In this document: positions 11,704 to 38,334 of the stretch, in pieces
How the letters are laid out: each line of letters opens with the position of its first letter
Numbering within the stretch: the first letter of the stretch is position 1
Origin: a virus
DNA length: 64,000 bases
Direction: 5' to 3' (one strand)
IMG/VR virus record: IMGVR_UViG_3300030329_006583
Coordinates: 186,001-250,000 of that record
Made by a program: the position numbers and the translations under genes
The notes under the pieces: model-generated
What the model saw: only the letters and a program-made list of their open reading frames with translations
What the model was told of the DNA's origin: nothing
The model's database searches: none

Positions 11704-12360
11704 TTAAAGAGAGGGACTGCCTATTAGAATTTTAGTATGTGCAGACCCATCGCCAAAGCGCTTGGTATACCATCCCTTGGCTTTCTTAAAGATATCGGGT
11801 GCATTAGGATCAGGATGATCACCATGCCAATCAAAATCATCACCAGCCAAAAGGGTACGCACAGCCGATTCACTTTCAATGGCCGGGGCACCTCGTCGAA
11901 GAAGTGCATAAGCCGGCTTACCGGAAACCTCCCCCCACCAATTACCTACCCCACCTATTTCTCCGCCGGCGCGTAATTCGGCACCCTTTTCCTTATATGC
12001 TGCAGATGCAGCCTGTGACCCATCATTTGCAGCACCACCTAATTTATTACCAGCAATGTCTGGTTTACCAAATAAGGCAACATCAATCTCAGGATCCTCA
12101 TCCAGATCCTCCACCATCCAATATCGATAACGATCCAAGCTGTCGGGAGAAGTAATCTTTACATGTCCACCAATGGGTTCATAGGTAGCCTGAACGATGT
12201 CATATAATTCTTGTTTAACAAGCTCTCGTCGTTCATCCCCAGTTTGTAACATTACCCACACACCCTTAGGAAGAACACCTTCAGGTGAAACCTCGGTGCC
12301 CGTAGATGCTTGTTCCACTAGGACCTGGCGAATGAATTGTCTCAAAGTCTCTTGGGTCAC
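11704..12360 (-). CDS. Tagged protein, 218 aa
   Basis: Residues 1-16 (MTQETLRQFIRQVLVE) are a shared segment ending L-V-E. The body runs LYDIVQATYEPIGGHVKI, then D-L-D-E-D-P-E-I-D-V-A-L-F and later WHGDHPD near the end. The IVxxTYxxIGGHV pattern is one I associate with conserved phage proteins, perhaps GNAT-like in fold; not certain. It is the last gene of the tagged array's first operon and starts 1 base after the EF-hand gene's stop. Confidence 0.7.
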   Translation of the reverse strand: MTQETLRQFIRQVLVEQASTGTEVSPEGVLPKGVWVMLQTGDERRELVKQELYDIVQATYEPIGGHVKITSPDSLDRYRYWMVEDLDEDPEIDVALFGKPDIAGNKLGGAANDGSQAASAAYKEKGAELRAGGEIGGVGNWWGEVSGKPAYALLRRGAPAIESESAVRTLLAGDDFDWHGDHPDPNAPDIFKKAKGWYTKRFGDGSAHTKILIGSPSL

Positions 12361-12361
12361 G

Positions 12362-12955
12362 TTAATCCTCTTCTACGATGCCTGCTTCTTGTGCAATTTT
12401 TAAAACATCAGCCAGTGCCAAAGCAGCGCTGGCAGGACAATGTGTATCGGTCATTTCCATTACTGGACGAATCATCTCATAAGCTTGTGATGGCTCTAGA
12501 ATAAGGGTGTCTCCGGCACGTTTATAAGAATCTGGGCATATGGCCATTTCGGCATTTTCTTCTTTTATCATCGCAAAATCTGAAAGGATTTCTGGGTTCT
12601 CACAATGCCAATTGACATGTGCAGCATAATCGTCTATTGTAACAATTCCATCCTGATCTAGATCAAAATGGTTATAAAGTTCTTCTGGTGAAAGATTGCC
12701 ATCACCATTCGCGTCGGGTGGCCCATGAGAAGCACCATACGTTTCCGTAATCTCCAGGGTTTCTGGTTCCGGGGTTACTTGTGCGGATCCACCCGCCTCC
12801 GAGTGATCAATGGGTTCCACCAGATCATCTCCACCAGCCCAAGCATTTTCAACAGGTTCAACTTCTGCCGGTGAATCAACATCCCAATATTGGTCGGTTA
12901 AATCTTCAAATTCTTCCTTAATGATTCTTCTAAGTTGTCTTTTTGTAATTTTCAT
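12362..12955 (-). CDS. Tagged EF-hand protein, 197 aa
   Basis: I start at the MKITKRQLRRIIKEE segment; the frame is open 47 codons upstream but that part overlaps the neighbouring gene and is not protein-like. After an acidic linker come two EF-hand loops, DANGDGNLSPEE and DLDQDGIVTIDD (about residues 86-125), each with the D-x-[DN]-x-D-G pattern for calcium. A helical, cysteine-containing C-terminus follows. A calcium-binding, possibly dockerin-like, protein carrying the shared N-terminal segment. Confidence 0.75.
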   Translation of the reverse strand: MKITKRQLRRIIKEEFEDLTDQYWDVDSPAEVEPVENAWAGGDDLVEPIDHSEAGGSAQVTPEPETLEITETYGASHGPPDANGDGNLSPEELYNHFDLDQDGIVTIDDYAAHVNWHCENPEILSDFAMIKEENAEMAICPDSYKRAGDTLILEPSQAYEMIRPVMEMTDTHCPASAALALADVLKIAQEAGIVEED

Positions 12956-12971
12956 TGTATTTTTCTCCGAC

Positions 12972-13280
12972 TCATATCCCAGGTGACATGATATCATCCA
13001 TCCATGTATCGCGCTCCAAGCCCTGGCGTATACCTTCAATGTACACATACAAGGCGAGCGCCTTGTCATCATCGATGCCATCTTTATACGCAGCATACTT
13101 TTCGCGAACTAGTTTGTCTATGACGCCTAGGTTACGCTCGATTTCGCGCCTTTCGCCGCCATCGCTTTTGTCACCGGTAACCGCCCGGGTCTGTGCTTCC
13201 CAATCGGTACCGAGCTGTTCACTGACTCGGGCAACCTCTTCCTTGATGATTCTTCTTAATTGCCTCTTTGTGATTTTCAT
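12972..13280 (-). CDS. Tagged protein, 102 aa
   Basis: MKITKRQLRRIIKEEVARVSEQ, then a helical body with KYAAYKDGIDDDKALALYVYIEG. The segment ends I-K-E. Soluble, charged, no recognised domain. One of the consecutive small tagged genes between 12.3 and 18.4 kb. Confidence 0.72.
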   Translation of the reverse strand: MKITKRQLRRIIKEEVARVSEQLGTDWEAQTRAVTGDKSDGGERREIERNLGVIDKLVREKYAAYKDGIDDDKALALYVYIEGIRQGLERDTWMDDIMSPGI

Positions 13281-13289
13281 TGTTTCTTC

Positions 13290-13586
13290 CTATCGCATGG
13301 GGTCATGCATGTGTACTCGCGTAACAGCCTCACCGACACCACCTTCACTCATATCGATCAAACCAGCCGCGATGGCTTTTACTGTCTCACGCACTGTCGA
13401 GGCCTCTACATCTTTACCGCCCTTCTCCAGGAGCTGCGCCAAAAGTTGCAGATCTTTATGGGCATCGTAAAGGCTCTTGAAAGCATCTTCGTGCACTACC
13501 ACGATGCTACGTGCGTACGCTTCCTTGAGAAACCTCTGCTTCTCTTCCTTGATGATTCTTCTTAACTGTCGTTTTGAAATTTTCAT
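13290..13586 (-). CDS. Tagged protein, 98 aa
   Basis: MKISKRQLRRIIKEEKQRFL segment followed by a helical domain (VVHEDAFKSLYDAHKDLQLL, VRETVKAIAAGLIDM) and a short C-terminus GEAVTRVHMHDPMR. No known family; size and layout match the neighbouring genes. Confidence 0.72.
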   Translation of the reverse strand: MKISKRQLRRIIKEEKQRFLKEAYARSIVVVHEDAFKSLYDAHKDLQLLAQLLEKGGKDVEASTVRETVKAIAAGLIDMSEGGVGEAVTRVHMHDPMR

Positions 13587-13587
13587 A

Positions 13588-13908
13588 TTATATCACCTTG
13601 GCCCATTGACCATCGTGAAGTTTATTCTCTACTTTGTCAAAACTGCCATGAATTGCCTGCATTATTTCTTCCACTAGCACATCATAGGCTGTGTCTATCT
13701 GTAGTATCCATTCCTCCCTTGTTGACGAGCCAGCAAACATGTCCGGCTGCTGATCAAACAAAGCTTCTTGGTCCTCAGCCCAAAGGCCGGCTATATTCTC
13801 AACTGCCTCTTTAACCTTTTCCTGATAGTATGGATCGAGCTCTTCACGGAGGAGTTTGGCCCTCTCTTCTTTGATAATTCTTTTCAGTTGTCTTTTAGTT
13901 ATTTTCAT
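13588..13908 (-). CDS. Tagged protein, 106 aa
   Basis: MKITKRQLKRIIKEERAKLL then a helical acidic body (KVKEAVENIAGLWAEDQEAL, AYDVLVEEIMQAIHGSFDK). Three extra codons (MVT) upstream are possible. No known family. Confidence 0.72.
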   Translation of the reverse strand: MKITKRQLKRIIKEERAKLLREELDPYYQEKVKEAVENIAGLWAEDQEALFDQQPDMFAGSSTREEWILQIDTAYDVLVEEIMQAIHGSFDKVENKLHDGQWAKVI

Positions 13909-13910
13909 TG

Positions 13911-14378
13911 TTACCATTCCTTACACGACCAATACCGTGCTTTTGTTTTTGGTCCTGGGTTATCACAATTGTGCCGAGCATCAAAGCTCTTTTTGGCTTT
14001 TGGATTACTCTTCCTGATCCTGGAATTCGGATCTCCAAACCTGACGACTGTTACATCGTCCTCTTTGGGGCCGTCCTTCACATATACCTTTTTCTGCTTT
14101 TTACCGTATCCGGTTTGTCCTTTACGGATGGCAGTCGGGTTATTAAGCTTTACTTTTCTGCCTTGGTATTCTGCCTCCTTTAAAGGATCACCCTCTACGC
14201 CATCATCTTCTTGTGCAGCCTTCCACGATTTCTCATCGGGATAGTCCTCATCACCTGGCTTCGCCGGCTTTTCTCCGCGCTTTCTCTTGGCATGAATATT
14301 TGCCCAGAGACCCTTCTTTTTTTCTTCTAAAAAGACTTCTCGAATAATTCCCCTGAGTTGTCGCTTGGTGACTTTCAT
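13911..14378 (-). CDS. Tagged protein with a conserved basic Cys-containing phage domain, 155 aa
   Basis: Variant segment MKVTKRQLRGIIREVFLEE, then a basic linker with EKPAKPGDEDYPDEKSWKAA. The C-terminal 70 residues hold KVYVKDGPKEDDVTVVRFGD, then KSFDARHNCDN and ARYWSCKEW at the very end. In my recollection the last part is a conserved domain in large phages, sometimes fused to head-maturation proteins. The two cysteines and the RHNC...YWSCK layout suggest a small metal-binding or disulfide-free knot. Function unproven. Confidence 0.75.
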   Translation of the reverse strand: MKVTKRQLRGIIREVFLEEKKKGLWANIHAKRKRGEKPAKPGDEDYPDEKSWKAAQEDDGVEGDPLKEAEYQGRKVKLNNPTAIRKGQTGYGKKQKKVYVKDGPKEDDVTVVRFGDPNSRIRKSNPKAKKSFDARHNCDNPGPKTKARYWSCKEW

Positions 14379-14677
14379 AGTTCCATTTCCTGCAAGACCT
14401 GCATGACCAGCTGCTTGAAAGATTTCATTGGACCAACCCTTTTCTCATCCTCGATGCGCCAGACGATGCGCCTAACATCATAAAGAGACGCTTGAATCGC
14501 GTCTTTAATTGCACCTTCAATTGACGCTATAGGGTAGTCCGTATTTCCGCTCTCGATATCCAATGCCAGGTGATCTAAATCATCGAGCACAGTTTCCATA
14601 TCGCTAACAGACTCGCGGACAAGCTTGGCCTTTTCTTCTTTGATGATTCTTCTTAATTGGCGTTTGGTGATTTTCAT
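14375..14677 (-). CDS. Tagged protein, 100 aa
   Basis: Start at MKITKRQLRRIIKEEKAKLV; an ATG six codons upstream overlaps the previous gene. Helical body including DLDHLALDIESGNTDYP and IKDAIQASLYDVRRIVWRIE. Overlaps the next gene by 4 bases (ATGA). No known family. Confidence 0.72.
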   Translation of the reverse strand: MKITKRQLRRIIKEEKAKLVRESVSDMETVLDDLDHLALDIESGNTDYPIASIEGAIKDAIQASLYDVRRIVWRIEDEKRVGPMKSFKQLVMQVLQEMEL

Positions 14678-15354
14678 GATTTTATCCCTGTGCACAGTAT
14701 TCCATCATTATCCCACTCTCCCACCGGCCATATTTTCCGCCACTGACCTTCGAGCTCTTGTACACGCCAATCACCACCGGTGTTGTCTATAACAATCTCA
14801 TCATCTATGACGTCGACCAGGATATCGGGCCCAAATATTGGAAGTGCCAAATCGTGCACCTCCTGAGCATCCTGTTCTTGCCATGGTTCAACGTGATGGT
14901 GTGCGATGGCTTCTCTAATAATTCTCTTTAGTTGTCGTTTTGTTATTTTCATTTGTTTTCCCTCAGTTCTTCGACGCATGCCTGAGCGTTTCACCAATTC
15001 TTCCCTGTGTTCCGGATCGGGTTGCATGGCCTTAATTTCTTTATCCCTTGCTGCACGTTCCTCTGCGGCTTTTTCGTATTCTTCCTCTGCTTCCATTGCT
15101 TCATGAGCAGCGTCATATTCTTTGTCGATTTCTTTGGCTATCTGATCAGCTGTCATAGTAGCAAACATATGTTGCATGGTGTCGCCGGATGGCCTCACAC
15201 CCCACCTGTATTTGTATGCATCAGAAAACATACCAAGCAAATCATCCTTCTTTTCGGAATCCTCATCGGTAAAGGGTGCAAGAGGAGAATCAACGCCTAA
15301 CGATCGCTGTGCTTCCCTAATGATTCTTTTTAGTTTCTGTTTTGTGATTTTCAT
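14674..15354 (-). CDS. Double-tagged protein or two in-frame genes, 226 aa
   Basis: MKITKQKLKRIIREAQRSLG opens a first part with a SDAYKYRWGVRPSG element and a coiled, alanine/glutamate-rich helix. At residue 135 (base 14952) a second full segment, MKITKRQLKRIIREA, begins a second part of 92 residues with DVIDDEIVIDNTGGDWRVQE. A GAGGG ribosome site lies 8 bases before the second ATG. A TGA in the +1 frame close by suggests either a fusion by a one-base change or overlapping translation. Confidence 0.7.
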   Translation of the reverse strand: MKITKQKLKRIIREAQRSLGVDSPLAPFTDEDSEKKDDLLGMFSDAYKYRWGVRPSGDTMQHMFATMTADQIAKEIDKEYDAAHEAMEAEEEYEKAAEERAARDKEIKAMQPDPEHREELVKRSGMRRRTEGKQMKITKRQLKRIIREAIAHHHVEPWQEQDAQEVHDLALPIFGPDILVDVIDDEIVIDNTGGDWRVQELEGQWRKIWPVGEWDNDGILCTGIKS

Positions 15355-15713
15355 TACATGTCCTCCAGGATTGATTCCGCCGTATCCAATGGGGCTCGTA
15401 CTTTCTCGCCTGCCAAGCCAAGATCATAGGTGAGATCTTTCAATTTGTCTATCGCCATACGAAGAGCATTGGGATTCTGATCGTAGACTACATCTTCAAA
15501 GTCAACATCAGATTCCAGATCTTCAAATGCCTCCCACCCTTTGATCAGGGCATCCACTTGCTCCTGAACCGCAGTACCTAGACTGGCATACGCCTTGGCA
15601 AAAGCGATAAGGGGATCGGAAGGAGAGTCTCCACCAAACCCAAATTGTTCATTGAGGAGCTTGGCTTTCTCTTCCTTGATGATTCTTTTCAATTGTCGTT
15701 TTGTGATTTTCAT
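15354..15713 (-). CDS. Tagged protein, 119 aa
   Basis: MKITKRQLKRIIKEEKAKLL then a helical, acidic body (LIAFAKAYASLGTAVQEQVD, LRMAIDKLKDLTYDLGL). Stop and next start touch at one base. No recognised family. Confidence 0.72.
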   Translation of the reverse strand: MKITKRQLKRIIKEEKAKLLNEQFGFGGDSPSDPLIAFAKAYASLGTAVQEQVDALIKGWEAFEDLESDVDFEDVVYDQNPNALRMAIDKLKDLTYDLGLAGEKVRAPLDTAESILEDM

Positions 15714-15728
15714 TGTTAATTCCTATAA

Positions 15729-16094
15729 TCAGCTCGTAACATATCTCACAGTAGGCGGTGTAGCCGGAACAGCCGTACTATTTTGGGCCGCGGCAGTTAC
15801 ACACCAATGACTGAAACCTGTACTAAACGCAATCCCCTCGGGAAATGCATAACTTCTTTTTACAGATGCAGGACAAAGGAACACCATAGAAGCAGCAGTT
15901 GTCCCGGCCGTAGCGCTAGTAGCGTCAGCTAGTTTAAAATAGACGGCCGTACTATATCCTGTGTTGTCAATCTCCACCATATACAGTGTACCTGCCGCGC
16001 CTGTTGTGTTTTCTACTGCGGTGGCCGCCGCCGCTGTATCCTGAACCAATTTATTAGCTAATGGATTGCTTTGATTAGTAACTGTAACTGCCAT
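15729..16094 (-). CDS. Virion-like beta protein, 121 aa
   Basis: Untagged gene inside the tagged array. Begins MAVTVTNQSNPLANKLVQDT and is rich in Ala, Thr and Ser with predicted strands (GTLYMVEIDNTGYSTAVYFK). Composition and strand pattern resemble small phage decoration or neck-type proteins. A GGAGGG site precedes the ATG. I infer a structural role with modest confidence. Confidence 0.65.
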   Translation of the reverse strand: MAVTVTNQSNPLANKLVQDTAAAATAVENTTGAAGTLYMVEIDNTGYSTAVYFKLADATSATAGTTAASMVFLCPASVKRSYAFPEGIAFSTGFSHWCVTAAAQNSTAVPATPPTVRYVTS

Positions 16095-16147
16095 AACTTA
16101 ATACCCTCCGCCGATTGTAAATAGAAACATGCTTTTTGTAATTTTCA

Positions 16148-16465
16148 CTACCCTATGCTCCCACCCGGATTTCTGCCCACTAATTCGTCCACTGTCACAA
16201 AATAGGCCTCAAGTTGTTTAAAGAAACTATTTAATCTCTCAACTTGCATCCCAAGATCCACAGCCAGTTCATCCCCCGCTTGCACACCCGGCTCACTAGG
16301 ATCTTGAAGACCATATATGCCATTTGCAATTTCCTCAATAGAAGATGCAATACCATCTAGTTCTGCCATCATTGAACCTTCAGTGGAAGCCATAGACTGT
16401 TCTTTTATCAACTTTGTTTTTTCTTCTTTTATGATTCTTCTAAGCTGTCTTTTTGTGATTTTCAT
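16148..16465 (-). CDS. Tagged protein, 105 aa
   Basis: MKITKRQLRRIIKEEKTKLI (five extra codons upstream are possible but overlap the next gene). Acidic helical body (GMAELDGIASSIEEIANGIY is approximated by residues 28-50), C-terminus DELVGRNPGGSIG. Looks like a small four-helix or coiled-coil protein of unknown role. Confidence 0.7.
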   Translation of the reverse strand: MKITKRQLRRIIKEEKTKLIKEQSMASTEGSMMAELDGIASSIEEIANGIYGLQDPSEPGVQAGDELAVDLGMQVERLNSFFKQLEAYFVTVDELVGRNPGGSIG

Positions 16466-16466
16466 T

Positions 16467-16679
16467 TTATAGCTCGCCATGTTTAAAGTCTTCCAGAGCC
16501 TCTAAGGCATCGGCACCAGTCATCCAATTTCCCACCAGATAATTAACCAGCTGTTCAGCTGAAACGCCCATCATTTCGAGTTCTTCTAAAATTGCAAAAG
16601 CAGCCTGGCGATTCTCGTTTAAGAGCTTCGACTTCTCTTCCTTAATGATTCTTTTCAATTGTCGTTTTGTAATTTTCAT
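16467..16679 (-). CDS. Tagged protein, 70 aa
   Basis: MKITKRQLKRIIKEEKSKLL, then AAFAILEELEMMGVSAEQLV and a short helix WMTGADALEALEDFKHG. The body resembles a small UBA-like or helical hairpin fold. If the segment is removed only about 55 residues remain, as expected for a small packaged peptide. Confidence 0.7.
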   Translation of the reverse strand: MKITKRQLKRIIKEEKSKLLNENRQAAFAILEELEMMGVSAEQLVNYLVGNWMTGADALEALEDFKHGEL

Positions 16680-16703
16680 CTTAGTTTCCTTTATTAATAT
16701 TCA

Positions 16704-17048
16704 TTAATCAGCAGTGTGACGATAATAATCCACTTTTACCGACATCCCATCATCCGTCACTGTGTGAGTGTACACCCCTGAAAGTGCGGCATACGGATCC
16801 TTCTTTTGTTGTATTTCAAGATTATTGAAAACATCAACATCACCTTGAGGGATGGGCTGCCCGTCTTTGCGAACATATACCTGTGTACTCCTCACATCAC
16901 CACGATTACGACCATACGGATAACTTACCGAACCACTACCAACAGTCTCATAATGTTGATCCAATAAATCCCGATGTTGAGACCATATATTTTCCTGCAA
17001 AAGTGCTTCCTTAATTATACCTCGCAACTGAGGGATTGTGATTAACAT
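16704..17048 (-). CDS. Tagged protein, 114 aa
   Basis: Variant segment MLITIPQLRGIIKEALLQE. The body contains DVRSTQVYVRKDGQPIPQGD and ends SGVYTHTVTDDGMSVKVDYY, beta-rich and unlike its helical neighbours. Ten additional upstream codons lie inside the next gene and I exclude them. No known family. Confidence 0.7.
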   Translation of the reverse strand: MLITIPQLRGIIKEALLQENIWSQHRDLLDQHYETVGSGSVSYPYGRNRGDVRSTQVYVRKDGQPIPQGDVDVFNNLEIQQKKDPYAALSGVYTHTVTDDGMSVKVDYYRHTAD

Positions 17049-17050
17049 TA

Positions 17051-17554
17051 TCAGCTCCTGCGATCCCGAGTGCCCCATCTCCCATAGGAATCATCACGCC
17101 TATCACGATAACTCTGTTTTTTGCCTGACTCAGCACCGGTACGCATACCCAATGATTCATCCTCTTTATCATCATATCCCTGGTGGCCTTCTTCCATATC
17201 GTCCTCTGCCAGGTTTTCTTCAACCAATTGGCGAATTCGTTGGCGTAAAGCGGCCTGCTTATTTAATTTCGCTTTTTCTTCTTTTACTATTTGGCGCAGC
17301 TGCCTCCTACCCAAGGCTCGGCCTCGGCGGCGACGAGACTCATGTTTTTCTCTTTCATGTTCCAGCTCTTCTTCGTGAGCGCGCTCCATCTCTTCCCGAT
17401 CATCCTTAATGTCTTTCTCAAGATTATCAATATGATCCTTGTCATCATCAATGTTTTTACGAAGATTATCCAGCTCATCACTGATGCTATCCTCGGCAAG
17501 GCGCCGAACTTCTTCCTTTACGATTTTTCTCAATTGTCTCTTTGTGATTCTCAT
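17051..17554 (-). CDS. Triple-segment coiled-coil protein, 167 aa
   Basis: N-terminal MRITKRQLRKIVKEEVRRL; a long charged coiled coil (residues 24-72); a second segment at 81-96 (LGRRQLRQIVKEEKAK); a third weaker one at 102-116 (ALRQRIRQLVEENLA); then a polar tail rich in Arg, Asp and Gly. Segments end V-K-E, V-K-E and V-E-E. This repeated layout is what a precursor cut at several sites would look like. Function unknown. Confidence 0.72.
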   Translation of the reverse strand: MRITKRQLRKIVKEEVRRLAEDSISDELDNLRKNIDDDKDHIDNLEKDIKDDREEMERAHEEELEHEREKHESRRRRGRALGRRQLRQIVKEEKAKLNKQAALRQRIRQLVEENLAEDDMEEGHQGYDDKEDESLGMRTGAESGKKQSYRDRRDDSYGRWGTRDRRS

Positions 17555-17844
17555 CCTCTCATTCTCCTTGCCATTCCCAGCTGTTGTCCCACATTTTGCG
17601 CATCAACAGTATCCCCTTGATCCAAATCCTGTTGGCGCTGTTGTGTTAATTTCTTAACTTGATCCGCCGAGGCTTGTTCCTCGTCGACATCATCTCCACT
17701 TAATGAAGTATCCATTCCCATGTCACCCACGGCAAGAAAACCTTCATCATCATCACTTTTCTCCTGGGGGGCTGTATAACCCACAACCTGTTCCCGCAGA
17801 ATCTCCCTTATTACATTTCGCAATCTGTACTCTGTAACTCTCAT
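17551..17844 (-). CDS. Tagged protein, 97 aa
   Basis: MRVTEYRLRNVIREILREQ segment (I-R-E and L-R-E), an acidic linker with DEGFLAVGDMGMD, then a polar coiled-coil end containing DQVKKLTQQRQQDLDQGDTV. Overlaps its neighbours by 4 bases on both sides. No known family. Confidence 0.7.
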   Translation of the reverse strand: MRVTEYRLRNVIREILREQVVGYTAPQEKSDDDEGFLAVGDMGMDTSLSGDDVDEEQASADQVKKLTQQRQQDLDQGDTVDAQNVGQQLGMARRMRG

Positions 17845-18134
17845 GCAGTTGTCACCCTACCTATTAACATCATACTGTCACCCTCCGTATCGCCACCTAT
17901 AATTACGGAGCGTATCTTTTGGCACAATCCCTTTACCCATTCTTTCAAACCCAATCGTTTTGTGGGTACCGGAATTTGCATACATTGTTTGGTATAGGCT
18001 TTCATAATAAAACGGGCGGCCAAACGAGAACCATATTTTTTAGCAATTACATGAACAATTTGTTGGGTTTTTGGGTTTAACTCAACAAACATCTCACGTA
18101 ATTCTGACCTGGTTGGCAATTGCCTGTTTTTCAT
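17841..18134 (-). CDS. Hypothetical basic protein, 97 aa
   Basis: I start at MKNRQLPTRSELREMFVELN, 1 base after the previous stop with GGTGA nearby. The body is helical and basic (IVHVIAKKYGSRLAARFIMK) with a Cys pair in KQCMQIPV...KGLCQK. The first residues only loosely resemble the shared segment (SELREMFVE). Could bind nucleic acid; unproven. Confidence 0.65.
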   Translation of the reverse strand: MKNRQLPTRSELREMFVELNPKTQQIVHVIAKKYGSRLAARFIMKAYTKQCMQIPVPTKRLGLKEWVKGLCQKIRSVIIGGDTEGDSMMLIGRVTTA

Positions 18135-18135
18135 T

Positions 18136-18384
18136 TTATTCACCGTAATCACTTATCAACTCGCTGGCATTTTGTTTGCGGGCCCTATCTGCTGCGGCTT
18201 GTAAAAAATCAGCCATAGTAATACCAGCTAACGCCGGTGCTTGTTCCACCGAGATGTCATCGCGTACTAGTCGAATGGCCTCATCTAAATACATGTGGAA
18301 AATATCGGTAACATGATCCCGAGCTGCCTCAGTGTTAAATTGTTCATGAATTATTTTTTGAAGTTGTTTACGAGTAATTTTCAT
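18136..18384 (-). CDS. Tagged protein, 82 aa
   Basis: MKITRKQLQKIIHEQ segment ending I-H-E, then a helical body (FHMYLDEAIRLVRDDISVEQ, LAGITMADFLQAAADRARKQ). First gene of the array's small-gene run on this transcript. No known family. Confidence 0.72.
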   Translation of the reverse strand: MKITRKQLQKIIHEQFNTEAARDHVTDIFHMYLDEAIRLVRDDISVEQAPALAGITMADFLQAAADRARKQNASELISDYGE

Positions 18385-18509
18385 CATTTTAACCTCAGTT
18401 TTTCACGCTACATGTGACCGGCTAAAACGATATTCAGGTATGCCAGTCTCATTTTATTTTAACGTGGGCGCAGACTCACTATCCCACCGGTTTAATACCA
18501 CCAATTTAA

Positions 18510-18543
18510 ATATAACAAAAGGTGACATTAATGCCACCCTTTA
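18510..18543 (-). terminator. Intrinsic terminator
   Basis: Minus-strand GGTGGCATTAATGTCACC palindromic stem followed by TTTTGTTAT, after the 35-aa peptide gene. It separates the 18.6-24 kb genes from the small tagged-gene array. Confidence 0.75.
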
Positions 18544-18554
18544 TTCAATAAAAA

Positions 18555-18662
18555 TTATTGCCCTGTAATCTTCTTAAGCTGGGCCATACACCATTTTAGG
18601 CCAACCCATGCAAAAGGGGCCACCACGGAACCCACAAGGGCACCCCACATAAACTCTGTCAT
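18555..18662 (-). CDS. Tiny membrane peptide, 35 aa
   Basis: AGGAGG lies 6 bases before the ATG. Translation MTEFMWGALVGSVVAPFAWV followed by GLKWCMAQLKKITGQ: one membrane helix with a basic tail. Strong ribosome site and the adjacent terminator argue that it is real. Function unknown. Confidence 0.6.
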   Translation of the reverse strand: MTEFMWGALVGSVVAPFAWVGLKWCMAQLKKITGQ

Positions 18663-18728
18663 AATACACCTCCTACCTAATATTACAAATAATATTTAAA
18701 ACATAAATATCAAAATTACAATTCTTTA

Positions 18729-19559
18729 TTACGCCGGCTTACCAAACCCATCTTCACTTGCATTAACAATGTGGTGATTGAGTTCATAGGCATGATTTAA
18801 TATTTCATCCGCATATCTCTCTATGCGGTTCACCAAAGATACGGGAACACCGCGTTCAAATAATCCGGTTTTCCCCAATCTCTCTACCACCGCATCTGTT
18901 ACATCATTGACCCGACGTGAATGTAACATATCGGATTCTAAATTTTCCTTTAATAAACCCTTTATGACACTTCGCAATAAGGATTCATTTTGACTATCTT
19001 CTACAACCTCCAATATAGCCCTCCAGTGACTTGGGCTAATACCGGAAGGTATTCCACCACTTGCAGATTGTAAAGCCATGAGTGCATCCCCGTATTTCTT
19101 TATTTGCCGTGGACTGGGATTGCTGAGAAGGTTGTGCAACATATCTGCCAATTTTACCTTTAGCGATGCCGAATCTCCCAATAAGGACAATACATAATCC
19201 TGATACGGCACATTCTTTTCATGGGTCAATTGACGTACCACACGTAATGCCTCCCGCCCGGATTGCACATCCCCGAATGAAGCGGTGATCATTGAGCTCA
19301 GATCCTCTGAGGATTTTATATTCCCTAATTCAATTGCATCTTCGAGGGTATCATGTAAAAGAGCAATTGCGCATAGTGTTTGATCCTCTGGGTAGTATTT
19401 TTCTATTATCTTAGCAACGGCCATGGGATGCTCAATATAGGGTTCCCCACTGCGCCTAGTTTGTCCTAGGTGTGCTAGCTGTGCCGTTGCCATGGCATCA
19501 TCAACATCGGCGCTAGCCATACCACAAATTTCACTAATATATTGGCGCAATAGTTTCAT
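18729..19559 (-). CDS. Tagged HD-domain ppGpp hydrolase-like protein, 276 aa
   Basis: MKLLRQYISEI opens the protein (a short form of the segment). Residues 18-150 form a RelA/SpoT-type HD domain: H30, the GEPYIEHP box with H44, the HD pair H69-D70 in ALLHDTLED and D139 in VKLADMLHNL. These are the metal ligands of MESH1-like (p)ppGpp hydrolases, and no synthetase domain is present. A second segment, NESLLRSVIKGLLKE (191-205), separates a C-terminal helical domain of 70 residues. It could lower alarmone levels in the infected cell. Confidence 0.8.
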   Translation of the reverse strand: MKLLRQYISEICGMASADVDDAMATAQLAHLGQTRRSGEPYIEHPMAVAKIIEKYYPEDQTLCAIALLHDTLEDAIELGNIKSSEDLSSMITASFGDVQSGREALRVVRQLTHEKNVPYQDYVLSLLGDSASLKVKLADMLHNLLSNPSPRQIKKYGDALMALQSASGGIPSGISPSHWRAILEVVEDSQNESLLRSVIKGLLKENLESDMLHSRRVNDVTDAVVERLGKTGLFERGVPVSLVNRIERYADEILNHAYELNHHIVNASEDGFGKPA

Positions 19560-20581
19560 CCTTCAATCTCCGGTATACCTGTTATCCTGTGACCGGGTCG
19601 GACCCCATTCCTTTTAAACCAACCGCGGTTCATCTCCAATGCGCATCGGGCAGGGCCATTCGAATAAGTATGTTCCTCCGTGAAGGGTTCCATGTCCTCA
19701 ATGTTTAAAATATACCCATCATCATCCGTATACGCAATAGACAAGGGGAGAGGTGTGTTCCTCATCCAGAAAGATCTTTGATTAGAATCTGGAAAAACAA
19801 ACAGCATCCCGCTATCTTCCCCCATCCCGCGACGGAACATTAGGCCCTGTTGACGAGTGGCAGGGGTTGAAGCAATCTCAGTATCGACCTGTATGCCATT
19901 TACCATCACCCCCTCAGACAATGTTGTAGTTGTTTTGGTTGCGTACCTGACCTCACCCTCATAGATGAACTCATCAACCTGATTAAACCCCAACCCCTGC
20001 GCTTCTCCCAATATCTCAACTTCAGCCATGCACTCATTTCGAGCACCACCCACCAAATCAGCGCCATTCCACTTTGGTAATTCATCTTCTAAATCGGGAA
20101 CCCAAAAACCATAGTCTTCAAGCTCGTCAAACAGAAGCTCGCTAACACCAATCGCTTCTACGTCTTCTTCTTCCAGCTCCTGGATATCTCGGATGTCTTT
20201 ATCAATCATGTACTTAACAATCTCTACAATCGATGATCGATCAAAACACACACTTGAATCCATCACGTCTCGAAAGAAACCGTAGCCCTTATCGAAGAAA
20301 GTTGATTTTGATAGCAATTCATCGTATGTCTCTTCATCCCAATCCAACTTTTCAAAGTAAAAGTCTTTCAAGGCAGACTCTGATATCATACCGAGCGTGT
20401 CTTCACCGTTATAAAGAAATAGCACACGGGAATAATTCTCTGCTGCCTCACGAAGCATATCACCGATATCAAAAGGAGTGTTGCTTTCGTACTCAGGCTG
20501 GATATCTACTACGACAAGACTGCCTTTCGATCCCTGCTCTTGCTCTAGCAATACCCTTATGTATTCGCGGAGTAGTTTCAT
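19556..20581 (-). CDS. Tagged two-domain protein with C-terminal DUF192, 341 aa
   Basis: MKLLREYIRVLLEQE segment, then a first domain opening SLVVVDIQPEYESN and continuing RVLFLYNGEDTLG, with the look of an alpha/beta fold; it is acidic. Residues about 225-335 are a DUF192 domain: TPATRQQGLMFRRGM, GMLFVFP, SFWMRNTPLPLSIAY and a GPARCALEMNRGW end. DUF192 proteins are small, often exported or cell-surface associated, of unclear role. Overlaps the next gene by ATGA. Confidence 0.8.
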   Translation of the reverse strand: MKLLREYIRVLLEQEQGSKGSLVVVDIQPEYESNTPFDIGDMLREAAENYSRVLFLYNGEDTLGMISESALKDFYFEKLDWDEETYDELLSKSTFFDKGYGFFRDVMDSSVCFDRSSIVEIVKYMIDKDIRDIQELEEEDVEAIGVSELLFDELEDYGFWVPDLEDELPKWNGADLVGGARNECMAEVEILGEAQGLGFNQVDEFIYEGEVRYATKTTTTLSEGVMVNGIQVDTEIASTPATRQQGLMFRRGMGEDSGMLFVFPDSNQRSFWMRNTPLPLSIAYTDDDGYILNIEDMEPFTEEHTYSNGPARCALEMNRGWFKRNGVRPGHRITGIPEIEG

Positions 20582-21021
20582 TTTTCTGGAACCCCCAATA
20601 GCTTTTCACATTCATCAGCCAAAATACTCAATTTTAGGGCGGTCAACCTGACATGTTCAATGAAACCCCTTTGGTGAAATGTTTTCCATGCCTGGTGATT
20701 ATCTGATTTCATGCGGTCAAAAATCTTATCGATACCAAGGGCATTACACAAAGAAAAGGAAAACTGAAATGCTGCCTCGCTGTAATCTTCATCCCTAAGT
20801 GCCAACAGACCTTTCTCTGCCGATCTTTTTACTTCACCATATAAAAGTGATACACATTCTGGATTATTTTTAATTTCGCAGGTAAGATTAGGCGAACATG
20901 CCCTGTACTCTAGTTCTCCAAAATACTCGATGGTTACCTGCGTATTGCCTTCCAGGTAATTAGTTTTGGGAGTGCAGGAACAAAAAAGTAGCAACAGCGT
21001 TATTAGTAAAGCCCTTATCAT
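20578..21021 (-). CDS. Putative lipoprotein, 147 aa
   Basis: MIRALLITLLLLFCSC is a short signal followed by a possible lipobox; the box is atypical because of the residue pair C-S before the cysteine. The mature part has several cysteines (RACSPNLTCEIKNNPECVS) and a helical tail that ends DECEKLLGVPEK. Likely exported to the host envelope, where it could act in superinfection exclusion; this is inference from location only. Confidence 0.6.
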   Translation of the reverse strand: MIRALLITLLLLFCSCTPKTNYLEGNTQVTIEYFGELEYRACSPNLTCEIKNNPECVSLLYGEVKRSAEKGLLALRDEDYSEAAFQFSFSLCNALGIDKIFDRMKSDNHQAWKTFHQRGFIEHVRLTALKLSILADECEKLLGVPEK

Positions 21022-21048
21022 CTATTAATCCTCCCTGCCAGTGGGTTT

Positions 21049-21402
21049 TCACCATGGCCCGTGTTGACCCGTCTTCAAACAGTTAACCACCGTTTCCTCG
21101 GCAGTATATTCCCGTCGGATTTCGGGCTGGAACATGTCATAATAAATATCACGTGGAATTCCTTCTGGCTTGGTATAACTTGACTGCCAGTCAAACACAG
21201 TGTCACCTTTCTCCACCCACGCATGATCCACAGTTTCCCCAGAGAACTTATCAGTGACCTGCCCATGCACCACCTTAAACTTGGAAAGATCGCTGAATTC
21301 TTCATCTGTGGTACCCTGGGCCATCTTTATTGCGTGTGGATAGCATTGGCCGATTGCTTTTTCCACTAGTAAGGCTCTTATGTACTCACGCAATAGATTC
21401 AC
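21049..21402 (-). CDS. Tagged protein, 117 aa, Cys/His pattern
   Basis: GTG start; MNLLREYIRALLVE segment ends L-V-E. The body shows GQCYPHAIKMA near the start, VDHAWVEKGDTVFDWQS in the middle and IPRDIYYDMFQPE later. A cysteine followed by H-A-W-V-E and an acidic residue recalls papain/transglutaminase-like folds, but this is only a pattern. The layout C...H...D would make a small cysteine protease possible. Confidence 0.7.
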   Translation of the reverse strand: MNLLREYIRALLVEKAIGQCYPHAIKMAQGTTDEEFSDLSKFKVVHGQVTDKFSGETVDHAWVEKGDTVFDWQSSYTKPEGIPRDIYYDMFQPEIRREYTAEETVVNCLKTGQHGPW

Positions 21403-22007
21403 TTTATCACCCCGGCCGAAGCAAAATCTACAATGTTAATCCCCAGCCCTTCGGTTTCTTCAGACACAACAGACATCAAGTTATCCGGAACCATTATCTC
21501 CTTAATTGACCAATTGTCAACCAAGGCTTCGTTAGCAGAACCAGGAATAAAATCTTTGGAATCAAGAACAAGAAAACCGGGTGACAACAACTCATCCATG
21601 TCATGATAGGTACCTTTGTTTACCCCAGAAGACTGTGCCCTATGTTCTCCTCCTACCCTAGCCGCCGTGGACCCATATCCCGTATTTAGATCCTCATTTG
21701 ATAATAGGGTTATCCTTCCATCGATAACCAACCCGACCATAGAAAGCTCATAGCTTTCTGGGTTTATCTGCCCTGGCAAATAAGCTCGAACACTCAATTC
21801 ATTTCTGGAACCTACGTTAATTGTTTGCATTAATTTTTGTGGCCTAACCCAATGAACTGTTACTAGCGAGTCAAGAAACTGTTGGTCAGCATTCTTTGCG
21901 TAATACTGCTTTATTTCCCGACCGGTTTTTAGAGCTAACAAATCACGCTCATCTGCTTCGGCAGTTTCGACCAACAATTCCCTTATATATTCACGTAGTA
22001 ATTTCAT
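21399..22007 (-). CDS. Tagged protein, 202 aa
   Basis: MKLLREYIRELLVE segment ending L-V-E. The body reads VTVHWVRPQKLMQTINVGSR, later GLVIDGRITLLSNEDLNTGY, and GTYHDMDELLSPGFLVLDS. Mixed alpha/beta, soluble. It may be a toxin-like or ADP-ribosyltransferase-like fold but I see no decisive catalytic motif. Confidence 0.7.
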   Translation of the reverse strand: MKLLREYIRELLVETAEADERDLLALKTGREIKQYYAKNADQQFLDSLVTVHWVRPQKLMQTINVGSRNELSVRAYLPGQINPESYELSMVGLVIDGRITLLSNEDLNTGYGSTAARVGGEHRAQSSGVNKGTYHDMDELLSPGFLVLDSKDFIPGSANEALVDNWSIKEIMVPDNLMSVVSEETEGLGINIVDFASAGVIK

Positions 22008-22291
22008 TTCTTGCCCCTGATCTTAACCCATGTGCCCCACATTAACGGAACAGCTAACCAATGCAAGCATAATAACCATGCTGCAGGAGCACCGGCATAA
22101 AAAGATGGATGAACTGTCTTTCCCAAGAATATGAAGAGAGCGGGAAACCCAACGTCTTCAATAATTTCCCACAACAAGAATATGACAACGAATGCCAGAC
22201 CGTTCTCTTTGAGAAAGCCTTTTAATTTCTCAATAGAAAAATGCTCAAATTTATGAACTAGGCGATCTTTTGTCCACTGAAATAACTTCAT
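22004..22291 (-). CDS. Membrane protein, 95 aa
   Basis: Amphipathic N-terminus (MKLFQWTKDRLVHKFEHFS) and two membrane helices (FVVIFLLWEIIEDVGFPALF, AWLLCLHWLAVPLMWGTW). Starts MKLF like the tagged neighbours but does not carry the L-x-E ending. ATGA overlaps on the downstream side, 1-base touch upstream. Confidence 0.68.
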   Translation of the reverse strand: MKLFQWTKDRLVHKFEHFSIEKLKGFLKENGLAFVVIFLLWEIIEDVGFPALFIFLGKTVHPSFYAGAPAAWLLCLHWLAVPLMWGTWVKIRGKK

Positions 22292-23139
22292 TAATAATAT
22301 TTTGCCCCCATAACATTAACATCAGGATACTGCTTTTCCATCTTTTCTTTCAGATGGCCTATCGCGGGGGTCATCATCTTCCCAAAGTCAATAATGCTAG
22401 CAGGCTTTGCATACATGCTGAAAAACTTGTCAACAAGCCGGGTCGCTACTTTTTGGCCACCTTTATCTCCCCGGGTTTTCATATAATCAATATACCAGTA
22501 ATCCGGCCCTCGTTGGTGATAATCTAAAAACCCGATGATGCAAACGTCGCTCACCCCTGGGATTATCTCATCTAGCACTGGTTTTTTAAGTTTTCTTCTG
22601 CCACCCTTTGTACGTTTTCGCCACCTTTCAATTTCTGCGAAATAGTGATCATGAGGCCTCGGGGGATCTGTGACAGAAGAATCACATAAGGCCAAACGTT
22701 TCACATTGCCAGAACTGTGATATTGGAGCGGAGAATCAACTTCACGGAACTCAATTCCCTCTGTCAAAATTCCCCTGACAACTTGACGTACAGACTCTTT
22801 CGCATGGGGTGTATCGTTAATCGTTTTAAGCTTGGCCATGTCAACACCAGAAATGCCGGTCAGATCAGCAATCAGATCATCTATGGTATAACCATCACCT
22901 CGCTCAAACCGAACCACCAGATCGGCCATCTGCTTTCCTTCAGGTGCAGGACGAAGCGAAGCATCCTGGCGCACCGTTATCACATCCGGCAGTCCCCGAA
23001 TCTTTGTGAGAATGTGTTCCATGGTAGGCTTATCAGGAGAATCAATGCTGACTCGCACTGTTACGGAGAGATCATCTAACACTGGTTCAGCAGCCGTTTG
23101 TTCCAATAAGCCCCTTATGTACTCGCGTAGTAGTTTCAT
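22291..23139 (-). CDS. Tagged GNAT-like acetyltransferase, 282 aa
   Basis: MKLLREYIRGLLEQ segment; a first domain (VTVRVSIDSPDKPTMEHILT) resembles a ferredoxin-like fold seen in phage structural fusions; a second internal segment ESVRQVVRGILTE (about 116-128) follows. The C-terminal domain has the GNAT pattern: CIIGFLDYHQRGPDYWYI then MKTRGDKGGQKVATRLVDK, the acetyl-CoA phosphate loop. TAATG overlap with the upstream stop. Acceptor substrate unknown. Confidence 0.75.
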   Translation of the reverse strand: MKLLREYIRGLLEQTAAEPVLDDLSVTVRVSIDSPDKPTMEHILTKIRGLPDVITVRQDASLRPAPEGKQMADLVVRFERGDGYTIDDLIADLTGISGVDMAKLKTINDTPHAKESVRQVVRGILTEGIEFREVDSPLQYHSSGNVKRLALCDSSVTDPPRPHDHYFAEIERWRKRTKGGRRKLKKPVLDEIIPGVSDVCIIGFLDYHQRGPDYWYIDYMKTRGDKGGQKVATRLVDKFFSMYAKPASIIDFGKMMTPAIGHLKEKMEKQYPDVNVMGAKYY

Positions 23140-24218
23140 TACCATTCCCCCGCTTGTTTGGCCCTGGTACGCATGTGTTCCGGAGTCAATGTGTTAGGAA
23201 ATGTCTTAACTACATCGACTGCACCCTTCGATAAAAAGATCGCCTGCTGTGGTTCATTTTTGTGAATCAAGCCGGTACTGCGATCATAAAAGGCGTCCAT
23301 ACCGATCCCTCTCAATATGGCGTTCCACTTTCCAATAGGGGCAGCTGCCTTATCACCGGCACCTGGACTCCCACCTGCTATCATCTTTGTCAATAGCCAT
23401 ATGAGATCAATAGGCCTCTTTCGGGCTTTCTTTTGTGCCTCTTCATATATGGCAGAATTTCTCATGATCGCCGTTATGGGATTAATTCCTTGGGCCACAG
23501 CCTCCTCTACCTTCTGCACCTCATCTTCAAATGAGGTACCTGATAAACCAAATCTCTCCACGGTTTCCTGTGTATACAATTGTTTCATCGCATCATATTG
23601 CTCTGAAAGTGTGAACTCAGGTGACGTCACCAAATTTGCTCCTGCGCTGGTTTTTAATATTGAAATGAAAGGTTGTTGTGTAGCAAAAGGCAATCGTTCA
23701 GAACCTTTAGGCGAAGTAAGTTGTTGAACTGTTTTGGGAAAGAGGGGGTAAGCATAAATTCCGGCGGGTGTGTTATAATCAGAGCCGGGGTTGACACCCA
23801 CCTTATTAATGGCTGTGAAAGTAATATAATATTCCGGCTTTTCCGATGAATTCCCATCGGCATATGATTGCAATTCATTTTCAAGGGTAGGAAGTTCCAC
23901 ACCTTCTTTATCGGCACGACGGGCCTCAGCCAATGTCATTTGTATATACTTGCGCAAGAGCTTCTCATTCATCTTTCCTGTCATCCTCTCCAACATGTCC
24001 ATGGCCTCTTCCCTGGTTACAAAGTAATCACCCTCAATGGTGTAGGGTTTCTCTGAGCCATCAGGTAGAATATAACCTGTACCCACATAAAACCCGTTGG
24101 AATTTTGCATCACCTGTAATTCTGTGGGACCAAATCCTGGCCGGTGCGGCTTGGGCGACCCTGCCTTTTGAAGTAAAGAATTTCTAAACCACTTAATTTG
24201 AAAACCCTTTGGCCACAT
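23139..24218 (-). CDS. Tagged protein with internal segment, 359 aa
   Basis: The first 80 residues contain FYVGTGYILPDGSEKPYTIE and a DYFVTREEAMDMLERM helix, a small domain I recall from phages. At about residue 83 the segment MNEKLLRKYIQMTLAE starts, with AGGAAAG before its ATG, so translation may begin there too. The following domain has YYITFTAINKVGVNPGSD then NTPAGIYAYPL, a pattern known from large-phage proteins, and a C-terminus including PIDLIWLLTKMIAGG. Possibly an enzyme such as an ADP-ribosyltransferase; not established. Confidence 0.7.
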   Translation of the reverse strand: MWPKGFQIKWFRNSLLQKAGSPKPHRPGFGPTELQVMQNSNGFYVGTGYILPDGSEKPYTIEGDYFVTREEAMDMLERMTGKMNEKLLRKYIQMTLAEARRADKEGVELPTLENELQSYADGNSSEKPEYYITFTAINKVGVNPGSDYNTPAGIYAYPLFPKTVQQLTSPKGSERLPFATQQPFISILKTSAGANLVTSPEFTLSEQYDAMKQLYTQETVERFGLSGTSFEDEVQKVEEAVAQGINPITAIMRNSAIYEEAQKKARKRPIDLIWLLTKMIAGGSPGAGDKAAAPIGKWNAILRGIGMDAFYDRSTGLIHKNEPQQAIFLSKGAVDVVKTFPNTLTPEHMRTRAKQAGEW

Positions 24219-24231
24219 AACCTATCCTTCC

Positions 24232-24567
24232 TTACGCAGAAAAAGACGTTCCACACCCACATGTGGAAGTAGCATTGGGGTTACTAAATTCAAACCCGCT
24301 TCCGTTCAGCCCACCTGACCAATCCAGAACGGTGCCAATCAAAAATAAGTAGCTCTTTTTGTCTACATATAACTTAATTCCGCTCTCAGACGTGTATACC
24401 TTATCACCTTCTTGAATCTCAGTTTCCAATTCCAAGTTATAAGACAAACCTGCACAACCCCCACCTTGTACACCCACCCTTATTCCGTTAGCAGTAGAAT
24501 TTTCACGTTCCATGATCTTACGAATCTGTGTTTCTGCATCCGGTGTTATCTCAATGGTTGGTTTCAT
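24232..24567 (-). CDS. iscA: A-type Fe-S carrier, IscA/ErpA-like, 111 aa
   Basis: Short protein starting MKPTIEITPDAETQIRKIM. The three conserved cysteines are C38 in GGGCAGLSY and C103/C105 in TCGCGTSF, the ligands that hold a cluster in IscA, SufA and ErpA. GGAGAG lies before the ATG. It overlaps the IscU gene by 17 bases, so the two are co-translated. It likely delivers clusters to target proteins; which A-type subgroup it belongs to is unclear. Confidence 0.9.
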   Translation of the reverse strand: MKPTIEITPDAETQIRKIMERENSTANGIRVGVQGGGCAGLSYNLELETEIQEGDKVYTSESGIKLYVDKKSYLFLIGTVLDWSGGLNGSGFEFSNPNATSTCGCGTSFSA

Positions 24568-24940
24568 TCTTTTCTCTCCAATCTTTGATTGCAGCCTTGA
24601 TGGCATCCTCCGCCAACACGGAACAATGAATCTTGATGGGTGGCAAATTCAATTCCTCGACAATCTCCACGTTTCTTATCTTTTCGGCATTGTCAACTGT
24701 CATTCCCTTTACCCACTCGGTCGCCAGTGAACTAGCGGCAATCGCACTCCCACAACCAAAAGTCTTGAATTTGGCATCTTCAACAATGCCTTCATCATTT
24801 ACCTTGATTTGCAATTTCATAACATCACCACATTCAGGAGCACCGACCAAACCGGTGCCCACTGTAGTGTCTGTTTTATCCATTGATCCAACGTTCCTGG
24901 GATTTTTGTAATGTTCAAGCACTTTATCTGAGTATGCCAT
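24551..24940 (-). CDS. iscU: Fe-S scaffold protein IscU, 129 aa
   Basis: Standard length and motifs of IscU, the scaffold on which Fe-S clusters form. Cluster ligands C37 (GAPECGD), C63 (TFGCGSA) and C106 (KIHCSVLAED) and D39 are all present. The chaperone-binding box LPPIK (99-103) is nearly the E. coli LPPVK recognised by HscA, an Hsp70. No cysteine desulfurase (IscS) is in view, so sulfur would come from the host or another part of the genome. Confidence 0.95.
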   Translation of the reverse strand: MAYSDKVLEHYKNPRNVGSMDKTDTTVGTGLVGAPECGDVMKLQIKVNDEGIVEDAKFKTFGCGSAIAASSLATEWVKGMTVDNAEKIRNVEIVEELNLPPIKIHCSVLAEDAIKAAIKDWREKNETNH

Positions 24941-24942
24941 TT

Positions 24943-25302
24943 TTAGCTCTTGAGTTTTCTACCTGGTCTTGTTGCATGCTCATGTGTTTTTGATGCTGCC
25001 GCTTCAACCATTCTGGCGGGCACGTTCTTGAGCGTTTTCTTGCCGAACACAATATCATAATGGCCAATGGCACCGTTCCTGTCAAGACTATGCCACACAA
25101 TTTTACCCACCCTTTTAGCCGGGATCCCATATGCCTCCTGCAAAGCTGAAGACTTCAGCTTACCATGTGTCAGTCACGTGTGCCCGATCAATTCTTCCTC
25201 TTCGGGATCCAACTCCGCTTGTTCCATACCTGACCCGAATGGTGCAGCTTTCTTCAATTCTTCTTTAATAATTTGCCTAAGTTGTCTCTTCGTAATTTTC
25301 AT
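24943..25302 (-). CDS. Tagged protein interrupted by an in-frame TGA
   Basis: MKITKRQLRQIIKEELKKAA opens at 25302 and runs 42 codons to TGA (25174-25176). The same frame then continues without a stop to 24943, giving ALQEAYGIPAKRVGKIVWHS, GHYDIVFGKKTLKNVPARM and a basic end. The second part (66 residues from a TTG at 25143) has clear protein-like composition. A nonsense mutation, a sequencing error, readthrough or separate initiation are all possible. Its ATG overlaps the upstream gene by ATGA. Confidence 0.6.
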
Positions 25303-35457: not shown

Positions 35458-35473
35458 TTTTAATCGTATTTTT

Positions 35474-38295: not shown

Positions 38296-38334
38296 ATTAC
38301 GCTCCTGATAGTGACGTACCAATAAATATACATA

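Follow-up and report, generated by a model that had tools for sequence, protein, structure and literature searches.

The DNA analysed here is a stretch of 64,000 nucleotides (hereafter the window) that covers bases 186001-250000 of the 267,118-bp virus record IMGVR_UViG_3300030329_006583; the rest of the record was also read and its genes listed. Between positions 11704 and 25302 of the window, about 20 genes begin with a common short segment, here called the tag, which has two main versions (MKITKRQLRRIIKEE and MKLLREYIRELLVE) and follows the pattern [hydrophobic]-x-x-[hydrophobic]-[I/L]-x-E, that of an amphipathic helix, with MKITKRQLRRIIKE or MKLLREYIRE as its commonest forms. A sequence-only reading of the window had proposed that a segment of this kind marks about 35 proteins and acts as a capsid-targeting propeptide. 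The number is right for the window when weaker, internal and C-terminal copies are included, and the borders given for the cluster are exact, with tagged genes at 11704-12360 and 25174-25302 at its ends. The untagged genes within it lie at 15729-16094, 17841-18152, 20578-21021 and 22004-22291, together with the genes at 24.2-25.1 kb. The tagged genes of the cluster are as follows (sizes in amino acids, aa; PWM, copy found in the position-weight scan described below).

11704..12360, minus strand: 218-aa protein, starts (V/M)TQETLRQFIRQVLVEQ; tag MTQETLRQFIRQVLVE followed by Q
12362..12955, minus strand: 197-aa tagged protein, MKITKRQLRRIIKEEF; PWM scan; weak EF-hand matches below the Pfam cut-off
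12972..13280, minus strand: 102-aa tagged protein, MKITKRQLRRIIKEEVARVSEQ; PWM scan
13290..13586, minus strand: 98-aa tagged protein, MKISKRQLRRIIKEEKQRFLKEA; PWM scan
13588..13908, minus strand: 106-aa tagged protein, MKITKRQLKRIIKEERAKLLREE; PWM scan; cargo family of 16 members at 13 loci
13911..14378, minus strand: 155-aa tagged protein, MKVTKRQLRGIIREVFLEE; PWM scan
14375..14677, minus strand: 100-aa tagged protein, MKITKRQLRRIIKEEKAKLVRES; PWM scan
14674..15354, minus strand: 226-aa two-tag protein, N-terminal MKITKQKLKRIIREAQ, internal MKITKRQLKRIIREAI at residue 135; PWM scan
15354..15713, minus strand: 119-aa tagged protein, MKITKRQLKRIIKEEKAKLLNEQ; PWM scan
16148..16465, minus strand: 105-aa tagged protein, MKITKRQLRRIIKEEKTKLIKEQ; PWM scan
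16467..16679, minus strand: 70-aa tagged protein, MKITKRQLKRIIKEEKSKLLNEN; PWM scan
16704..17048, minus strand: 114-aa tagged protein, MLITIPQLRGIIKEALLQE; PWM scan
17051..17554, minus strand: 167-aa two-tag protein, MRITKRQLRKIVKEEVRRLAE followed by DSI, and internal RALGRRQLRQIVKEEKAKL; PWM scan
17551..17844, minus strand: 97-aa tagged protein, MRVTEYRLRNVIREILREQ; PWM scan
18136..18384, minus strand: 82-aa tagged protein, MKITRKQLQKIIHEQ; PWM scan
18729..19559, minus strand: 276-aa tagged HD-domain protein, MKLLRQYISE; HD_4 6.5e-8; second, internal tag-like SLLRSVIKGLLKE after the HD domain
19556..20581, minus strand: 341-aa tagged protein, MKLLREYIRVLLEQ; C-terminal DUF192 domain 1.7e-31
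21049..21402, minus strand: 117-aa tagged protein, (V/M)NLLREYIRALLVE; PWM scan
21399..22007, minus strand: 202-aa tagged protein, MKLLREYIRELLVE; PWM scan
22291..23139, minus strand: 282-aa two-tag protein, MKLLREYIRGLLEQ and internal ESVRQVVRGILTE followed by G
23139..24218, minus strand: 359-aa protein, internal tag-like NEKLLRKYIQMTLAEA at about residue 83
25174..25302, minus strand: small 42-aa tagged protein, begins MKITKRQLRQIIKEELKKAAP...; tag MKITKRQLRQIIKEEL; last gene of the cluster

A position-weight scan over all stop-to-stop frames of the record, in which a copy of at least 13 bits was called strong, gave 33 strong copies, all on the coding (minus) strand; neither the plus strand nor reversed proteins gave any. 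With a strict degenerate DNA pattern the record had 13 matches, and with the pattern reversed it had none; a looser core pattern matched 33 times on the minus strand of the window and 3 times on its plus strand, a few of these matches being chance. Where two tags share a residue, third codon positions differ in 42% of cases, and this synonymous variation shows that selection acts on the protein, which is what is conserved. The sequence-only reading mentioned neither the C-terminal copies in the window (37945-38322, 51620-52225 and 53751-55040), which exceed chance both in the record (3 vs 0.2) and in relatives (8 vs 0.9), nor the internal second copies (14674-15354, 17051-17554, 18729-19559 and 22291-23139). 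An upstream L-x-E before C-terminal tags was considered as a mirrored cut site and was unconvincing (5 of 18 vs a 12% background); the N/K-E-S found ahead of several of these tags may be just a helix cap. Outside the cluster, the window holds the following tagged genes.

7622..8431, plus strand: tagged protein on the opposite strand, MTNLIRKYVRHLLNE
35293..35496, minus strand: small tagged protein, MKHLRRFVRESVRHE
37945..38322, minus strand: C-terminally tagged protein, ...KKLNTKELRKLIREELAKLC; PWM scan
47938..48270, minus strand: internally tagged protein, LLAEEKIRRIIREEIAAYLRE
49633..50856, minus strand: 407-aa tagged protein, MKAITQEKLVRKYIRNILHE
51620..52225, minus strand: nucleotidyltransferase-like protein (weak), C-terminal tag ...QENMLRTYVRQIIMG, retained in homologues
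52243..52596, minus strand: 117-aa tagged protein, (V/M)KITKNRLRKIIGEVLLRE; PWM scan
52600..53754, minus strand: 384-aa tagged protein, MNDRLLRKWVQVLLME
53751..55040, minus strand: C-terminally tagged protein, ...NESLLRNYVREFVGGMG
55092..55373, minus strand: small tagged protein, MDNIRLRHMIRQILQE
57029..58264, minus strand: probable tagged protein, MSIKITKAVLENYLKRVLFE
58755..59843, minus strand: 362-aa tagged protein, MKKLTPAQLRYLILQE
61407..62015, minus strand: acidic tagged protein, MKLTKKYLKKLINEEFRLLVEQ; PWM scan

The end of the tag was analysed in 246 tags picked by positions 1-12 only, positions 13-20 being unused in the selection. Position 14 was Glu in 229 of them (93%), another residue in 17 and never Asp, while the other positions of the same helix held 198 Glu vs 7 Asp, a ratio at which about 8 Asp would be expected at position 14. 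Position 15 was Glu, Ala, Ser or Thr in ~90% of the tags. An [LIVMF]-x-E motif with its Glu at positions 13-23 was present in 244/246 tags (148 ± 7 after shuffling); where Glu14 was missing (17 tags), another L-x-E lay nearby in 15. The [L/I/V]-x-E ending claimed from the sequence alone is thus real; the claim did not extend to a second L-x-E near residue 18-22, which we found in 150 of 244 tags (84 ± 7 when shuffled). In an AlphaFold2 model of the 11704-12360 protein (mean predicted local distance difference test score, pLDDT, of 66), residues 3-18 are predicted as a helix of their own and the linker behind them is of low confidence, so that in this protein the tag may, with low confidence, be a helix set apart by a flexible linker.

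The sequence-only reading made its proposal depend on a prohead protease like gp21 of phage T4, and one is encoded in the same record: a Peptidase_S77 match (S77) lies at record positions 45238-45660 (expect value, E, 1.8e-27), within the protease region 45139-45747. T4 gp21 is the one solved structure that the protease matches (5jbl, 9.8e-16), and its motifs GE-x-x-HP and G-[IV]-SSRG, which hold the conserved catalytic His and Ser, align with T4 gp21. Gene order is T4-like (terminase, portal, protease, two small genes, an acidic scaffold-like protein at record positions 40545-42233 and a gp23-like capsid protein). The two small genes directly after the protease have tag-like N-termini here and in ~10 relatives (the clearest being MAKITKRMLKGIVKECLVEILSE); in T4, the small core genes 67 and 68 adjoin gene 21. 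The capsid protein is ~50% identical, over its second half, to the annotated Gp23 of Flavobacterium phage immuto, and in this phage and its relatives a propeptide of ~60 residues ends in [VIL]-[LIV]-[RKS]-E before [AQS], where T4 gp23 has FLTE before A; alignment with T4 gp23 thus predicts a cut at the propeptide end. L-x-E sites are enriched in the scaffold-like protein (32 vs 22 ± 4), as they are in T4 gp22 (23 vs 13 ± 3). Duplicated genes were also seen among head or possible head proteins: two tandem gp23-like capsid genes in each of two relatives (L170:14511-18366 and L171:14570-18451), and tandem duplicated small proteins, possibly for capsid decoration, at window positions 34321-34797 and 34802-35242 and record positions 36870-38407 and 157523-158859.

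Altogether, these results make it probable that the tag is a capsid-targeting sequence with processing that works as the T4 internal-protein propeptide does; it differs in sequence and marks about tenfold as many proteins. The amphipathic tag helix would bind the scaffold core of the prohead, and the tagged protein would be enclosed as the shell forms. The S77 protease would then cut after L/I-x-E, at Glu14 and/or at the second site near residue 18-22, and the freed cargo would remain in the head with the DNA and probably be ejected into the host. We infer these steps of binding, packaging, cutting and ejection, taking presence in the head, cutting and ejection from T4.

The comparison with T4 can be made residue by residue. 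The internal proteins IPI, IPII and IPIII share a capsid-targeting sequence (Mullaney and Black, 1996, as described in PMC9026906 and PMC5694885), which in IPIII reads MKTYQEFIAE; there, residues 4 and 7 count in targeting and residues 8 and 10 in processing, and with Asp at residue 10 targeting is kept while processing is blocked (PMC9026906). MKLLREYIRE stands in the IPIII register, and MKITKRQLRRIIKE is the same register displaced by four residues: hydrophobic, hydrophobic, Ile and Glu fall at 8, 11, 12 and 14 (4, 7, 8 and 10 in MKLLREYIRE), with the IPIII spacing kept. Because positions 8, 11 and 12 belonged to the search pattern, only Glu14 confirms this register without bias. As in the T4 internal proteins, a short N-terminal segment stands on unrelated proteins, shows hydrophobic-x-x-hydrophobic-Ile-x-Glu and an L/I-x-E site, and occurs with S77 and T4-like head genes. 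The tag differs from theirs in sequence, in its greater length and frequent second L-x-E, in marking ~35 proteins vs 3-4, and in its C-terminal and internal copies. T4 gp24, which has a short N-terminal propeptide (PMC5694885) and begins MAKINELLRE followed by S, resembles the L-L-R-E tag, whereas gp24 and Alt are single proteins with no repeated tag. Alt is cut by gp21 at both ends (PMC9026906), and its C-terminal cut is a precedent for the C-terminal tags of this phage.

Similar segments were noticed in other phages. In T4 itself (AF158101, 19101-19130, minus strand), a frame opens with MKTFKEFIKE, the IPIII tag pattern. Two related large phages from IMG/VR (G042 and G057, 214 and 222 kb) have 4-5 T4-like tags (such as MKNFIEFINE and MKKYIEFITE) and no Peptidase_S77 match, and may have a diverged prohead protease. 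A protein of the Microcystis phage isolate Mel-JY01 (WWT39336.1, L175:15394-16692) starts with the T4-tag-like MQFKQYILGE and ends with MKITREQLKEKIRIIVKRVLNEAMK, which is like the present tag, so that it may be tagged at both ends; a hypothetical protein of the cultured phage immuto (QQO92108.1, L152:4526-5284) has the tag-like start MKKSQLRQIIKEALDAS.

The strict pattern matches more than 100 stretches of IMG/VR. Among the tagged records tested, S77 was found in all 12 that reach 140 kb and in 14 of the 15 that reach 100 kb, vs 3 of the 23 records that reach 43 kb in a comparison sample drawn with an arbitrary 14-mer, none of which (0/23) had the tag. The association gives Fisher p = 0.0017 (at least 100 kb) and 0.0009 (at least 43 kb), values that are rough, a few records being near-duplicates. 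Only 4 of 84,980 bacterial and archaeal genomes had the strict pattern, all four metagenome-assembled. One tagged contig, NHDW01000006.1 (306 kb), holds 15 tags and an S77 protease together, which points to misbinned phage contigs; this contig and the tagged contig PBIO01000025.1, which come from two metagenome-assembled genomes of bacteria, are both likely to be phage DNA. Among related phages, each seems to have its own tag version and to put it on few proteins; in this phage dozens carry it. A direct DNA search of phage records gave no match; tblastn with short tag queries, a weak search at 22 residues, gave one weak match each, in an unannotated 484-kb uncultured phage, and found no isolate with the MKITKRQL version. 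The literal tag string was not found in published papers.

The tagged proteins behave as modules. The related loci examined hold 731 tagged places with 387 cargo groups, 302 of them single (one pooled family of 110 is over-merged through internal tags). In relatives, the family of the 11704-12360 protein carries TQETLRQFIRQVLVE before Q, KITKRQLRRIIRESLIE before A, MQLVRKYVRALLIE before Q and an internal VTGNDLRRLIRDVLLE before K, and 60%-identical homologues have other versions. Relatives differ in where HD-domain and DUF192 proteins bear the tag, which may be at the N-terminus, at the C-terminus or missing, and the 7622-8431 cargo, tagged N-terminally here, is tagged C-terminally in its homologue at L124. 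Several proteins have two tags, and a module that stands behind an internal tag in one phage can be a protein with a tag of its own elsewhere. Thus the second domain of the 22291..23139 protein, which follows its internal tag, has an N-terminal tag in relative L311. The DSIxDELDNL module of the 17051..17554 protein stands behind internal tags in relatives, and a short relative of the 23139..24218 protein ends at the corresponding place with the C-terminal tag KESLLRAYVREMLG. Exchangeable tags, switches of end and modules tagged separately elsewhere are the behaviour expected of an address label. This suggests that some multi-tag genes encode polyproteins that the protease would separate.

As to what is carried, the HD hydrolase named by the sequence-only reading stands (HD_4, 6.5e-8), the DUF192 assignment is likewise sound and the EF-hand is weak, its matches lying below the Pfam cut-off; the GNAT, ligase, nuclease and metallopeptidase were unconfirmed. 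Most cargo had no match in the Pfam search, and a search of the defence library gave marginal matches only. In a fold search with the 11704-12360 cargo, acetyltransferases came best (E 0.2, template-modelling (TM) score below 0.4), and no function was assigned. A superoxide dismutase (62012-62779; Sod_Fe_C, 3.8e-17) was dropped as a cargo candidate, its N-terminus being a weak match and its relatives having no clear tag.

Several points weigh against capsid targeting with processing. Packaging and cleavage of the tagged proteins are as yet predictions. C-terminal and internal copies fit poorly with a simple N-terminal propeptide, and some tags, such as MKLLREYIRGLLEQ, show Gln or Met in place of the expected Glu. 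The T4 version of the pattern, MKx[FY]xx[FY][LIV]xE, which has 3 copies in T4 and 4 in Synechococcus phage DSL-LC03, is absent from the record and from five tagged relatives; the tag would thus work like that of T4 yet stand outside the sequence family of the T4 internal-protein tags. T4-like late promoters were not enriched upstream of tagged genes, which gives no promoter link to T4 late genes, and the tag-S77 association partly reflects shared ancestry as well as near-duplicates. The capsid-targeting reading survived every computational test run. Of the original proposal, a targeting segment with an L/I-x-E site is thus well supported (by the protease, the adjoining tag-like genes, the IPIII spacing and the S77-bearing viruses), and the segment is more than an N-terminal propeptide, as its C-terminal and internal copies show.

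The alternative that fares best keeps the prohead as destination and drops the cut: the tag would bind scaffold or capsid, and Glu14 would be kept for helix or binding reasons. Such a role suits an amphipathic helix, modelled with low confidence as standing apart from the cargo on a flexible linker, and C-terminal copies that often have no clean L-x-E; many SPN3US head proteins also remain uncut (PMC10052503). We nevertheless consider it unlikely, given that position 14 has Glu without any Asp, that L-x-E is present in 244/246 tags with a back-up where Glu14 is missing, and that the tag resembles the predicted cut site of the capsid protein. It is more improbable still that the tag helix has nothing to do with the head and serves interaction or localisation instead (for instance with the membrane, host RNA polymerase or a replication compartment): tag-like N-termini stand on the two genes adjoining the prohead protease, and the association with S77 viruses, the T4 register and the L-x-E rule all point to the head, even if short basic helices of amphipathic type can attach to membranes or to nucleic acid, and for much of the cargo no connection with the head is known. 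We give very little credence to the repeated 5' ends being a recombination device or a translation-initiation feature of cassettes that exchange via shared DNA, with no protein function. The tightly packed genes and diverse cargo (387 groups) do look like a hypervariable cassette array, but the synonymous third-position differences (42% at identical residues) speak against shared DNA, and a start-site role is excluded by the internal and C-terminal copies. Chance resemblance, basic helical N-termini being common, is excluded by the counts (33 coding-strand copies vs none on the other strand or reversed, 731 places in related loci, and the strict pattern confined to 4 of 84,980 records of bacteria or archaea, all metagenome-assembled and one contig with S77).

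Capsid targeting with processing would be new here as a T4 system in which the tag has another sequence, marks far more proteins and is free in its position. A wider version, which we put forward tentatively and hold somewhat doubtful, is a general packaging code in a lineage of large T4-related phages that so far has no isolate with the exact tag: an exchangeable helical tag, N-terminal, C-terminal or internal, on hundreds of cargo families, with multi-tag genes as polyproteins separated in the head and a cargo larger and faster evolving than in the T4-like phages studied.

Bacterial microcompartments and encapsulins also use encapsulation peptides, in which a short linker-joined helix or peptide loads unrelated enzymes into a protein shell. 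The tag would be alike as a linker-joined loading helix and unlike in that those systems have no protease step and their shells are unrelated. In the giant phages SPN3US and phiKZ, as proposed here, many head proteins are cut after a short Glu-ending motif and the protein cargo is large, and the paralogues gp53 and gp54 share a common N-terminal stretch with two candidate sites that has been likened to the T4 tag (PMC5694885). Their propeptides, however, are mostly 100-250 residues, the motif is A-x-E or S/A-x-E, SPN3US has nine cleaved substrates, and the head genes are not T4-like in sequence; the short tags, L/I-x-E sites and T4-like head genes of this phage do not match processing of that type.

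T4 carries three internal proteins and Alt, and IPI defeats a restriction system. If capsid targeting is correct, this lineage would deliver to the cell a set of different proteins roughly tenfold that of T4, including HD-domain and DUF192 proteins, and the tag would let injected effectors and counter-defence proteins be read from sequence alone, metagenomes included. The targeting sequence has been suggested by T4 authors as an evolutionary route to packaging varied proteins (PMC9026906), an idea that would become directly testable at scale. The tag could also serve as a tool to load proteins into large phage heads.

Other features of the record lie apart from the tag. By eye, the window holds a large set, for a phage, of host-like genes (resembling those for IscA/IscU iron-sulphur proteins, IMP dehydrogenase, DnaJ, DnaK, peptide deformylase, sigma factor, GroEL and cysteine synthase), at 24232-24940, 25705-26742, 30805-31839, 40030-41925, 42007-42639, 43725-44507, 44814-46424 and 8638-9549. 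A long run of genes resembling sugar transferases and sugar-nucleotide enzymes lies at record positions 94464-120988. Outside the window, at 150-176 kb of the record, at least 20 or so small same-strand proteins start with M-K-[VI]-G-D-L-[VI]..., a beginning unrelated to the tag.

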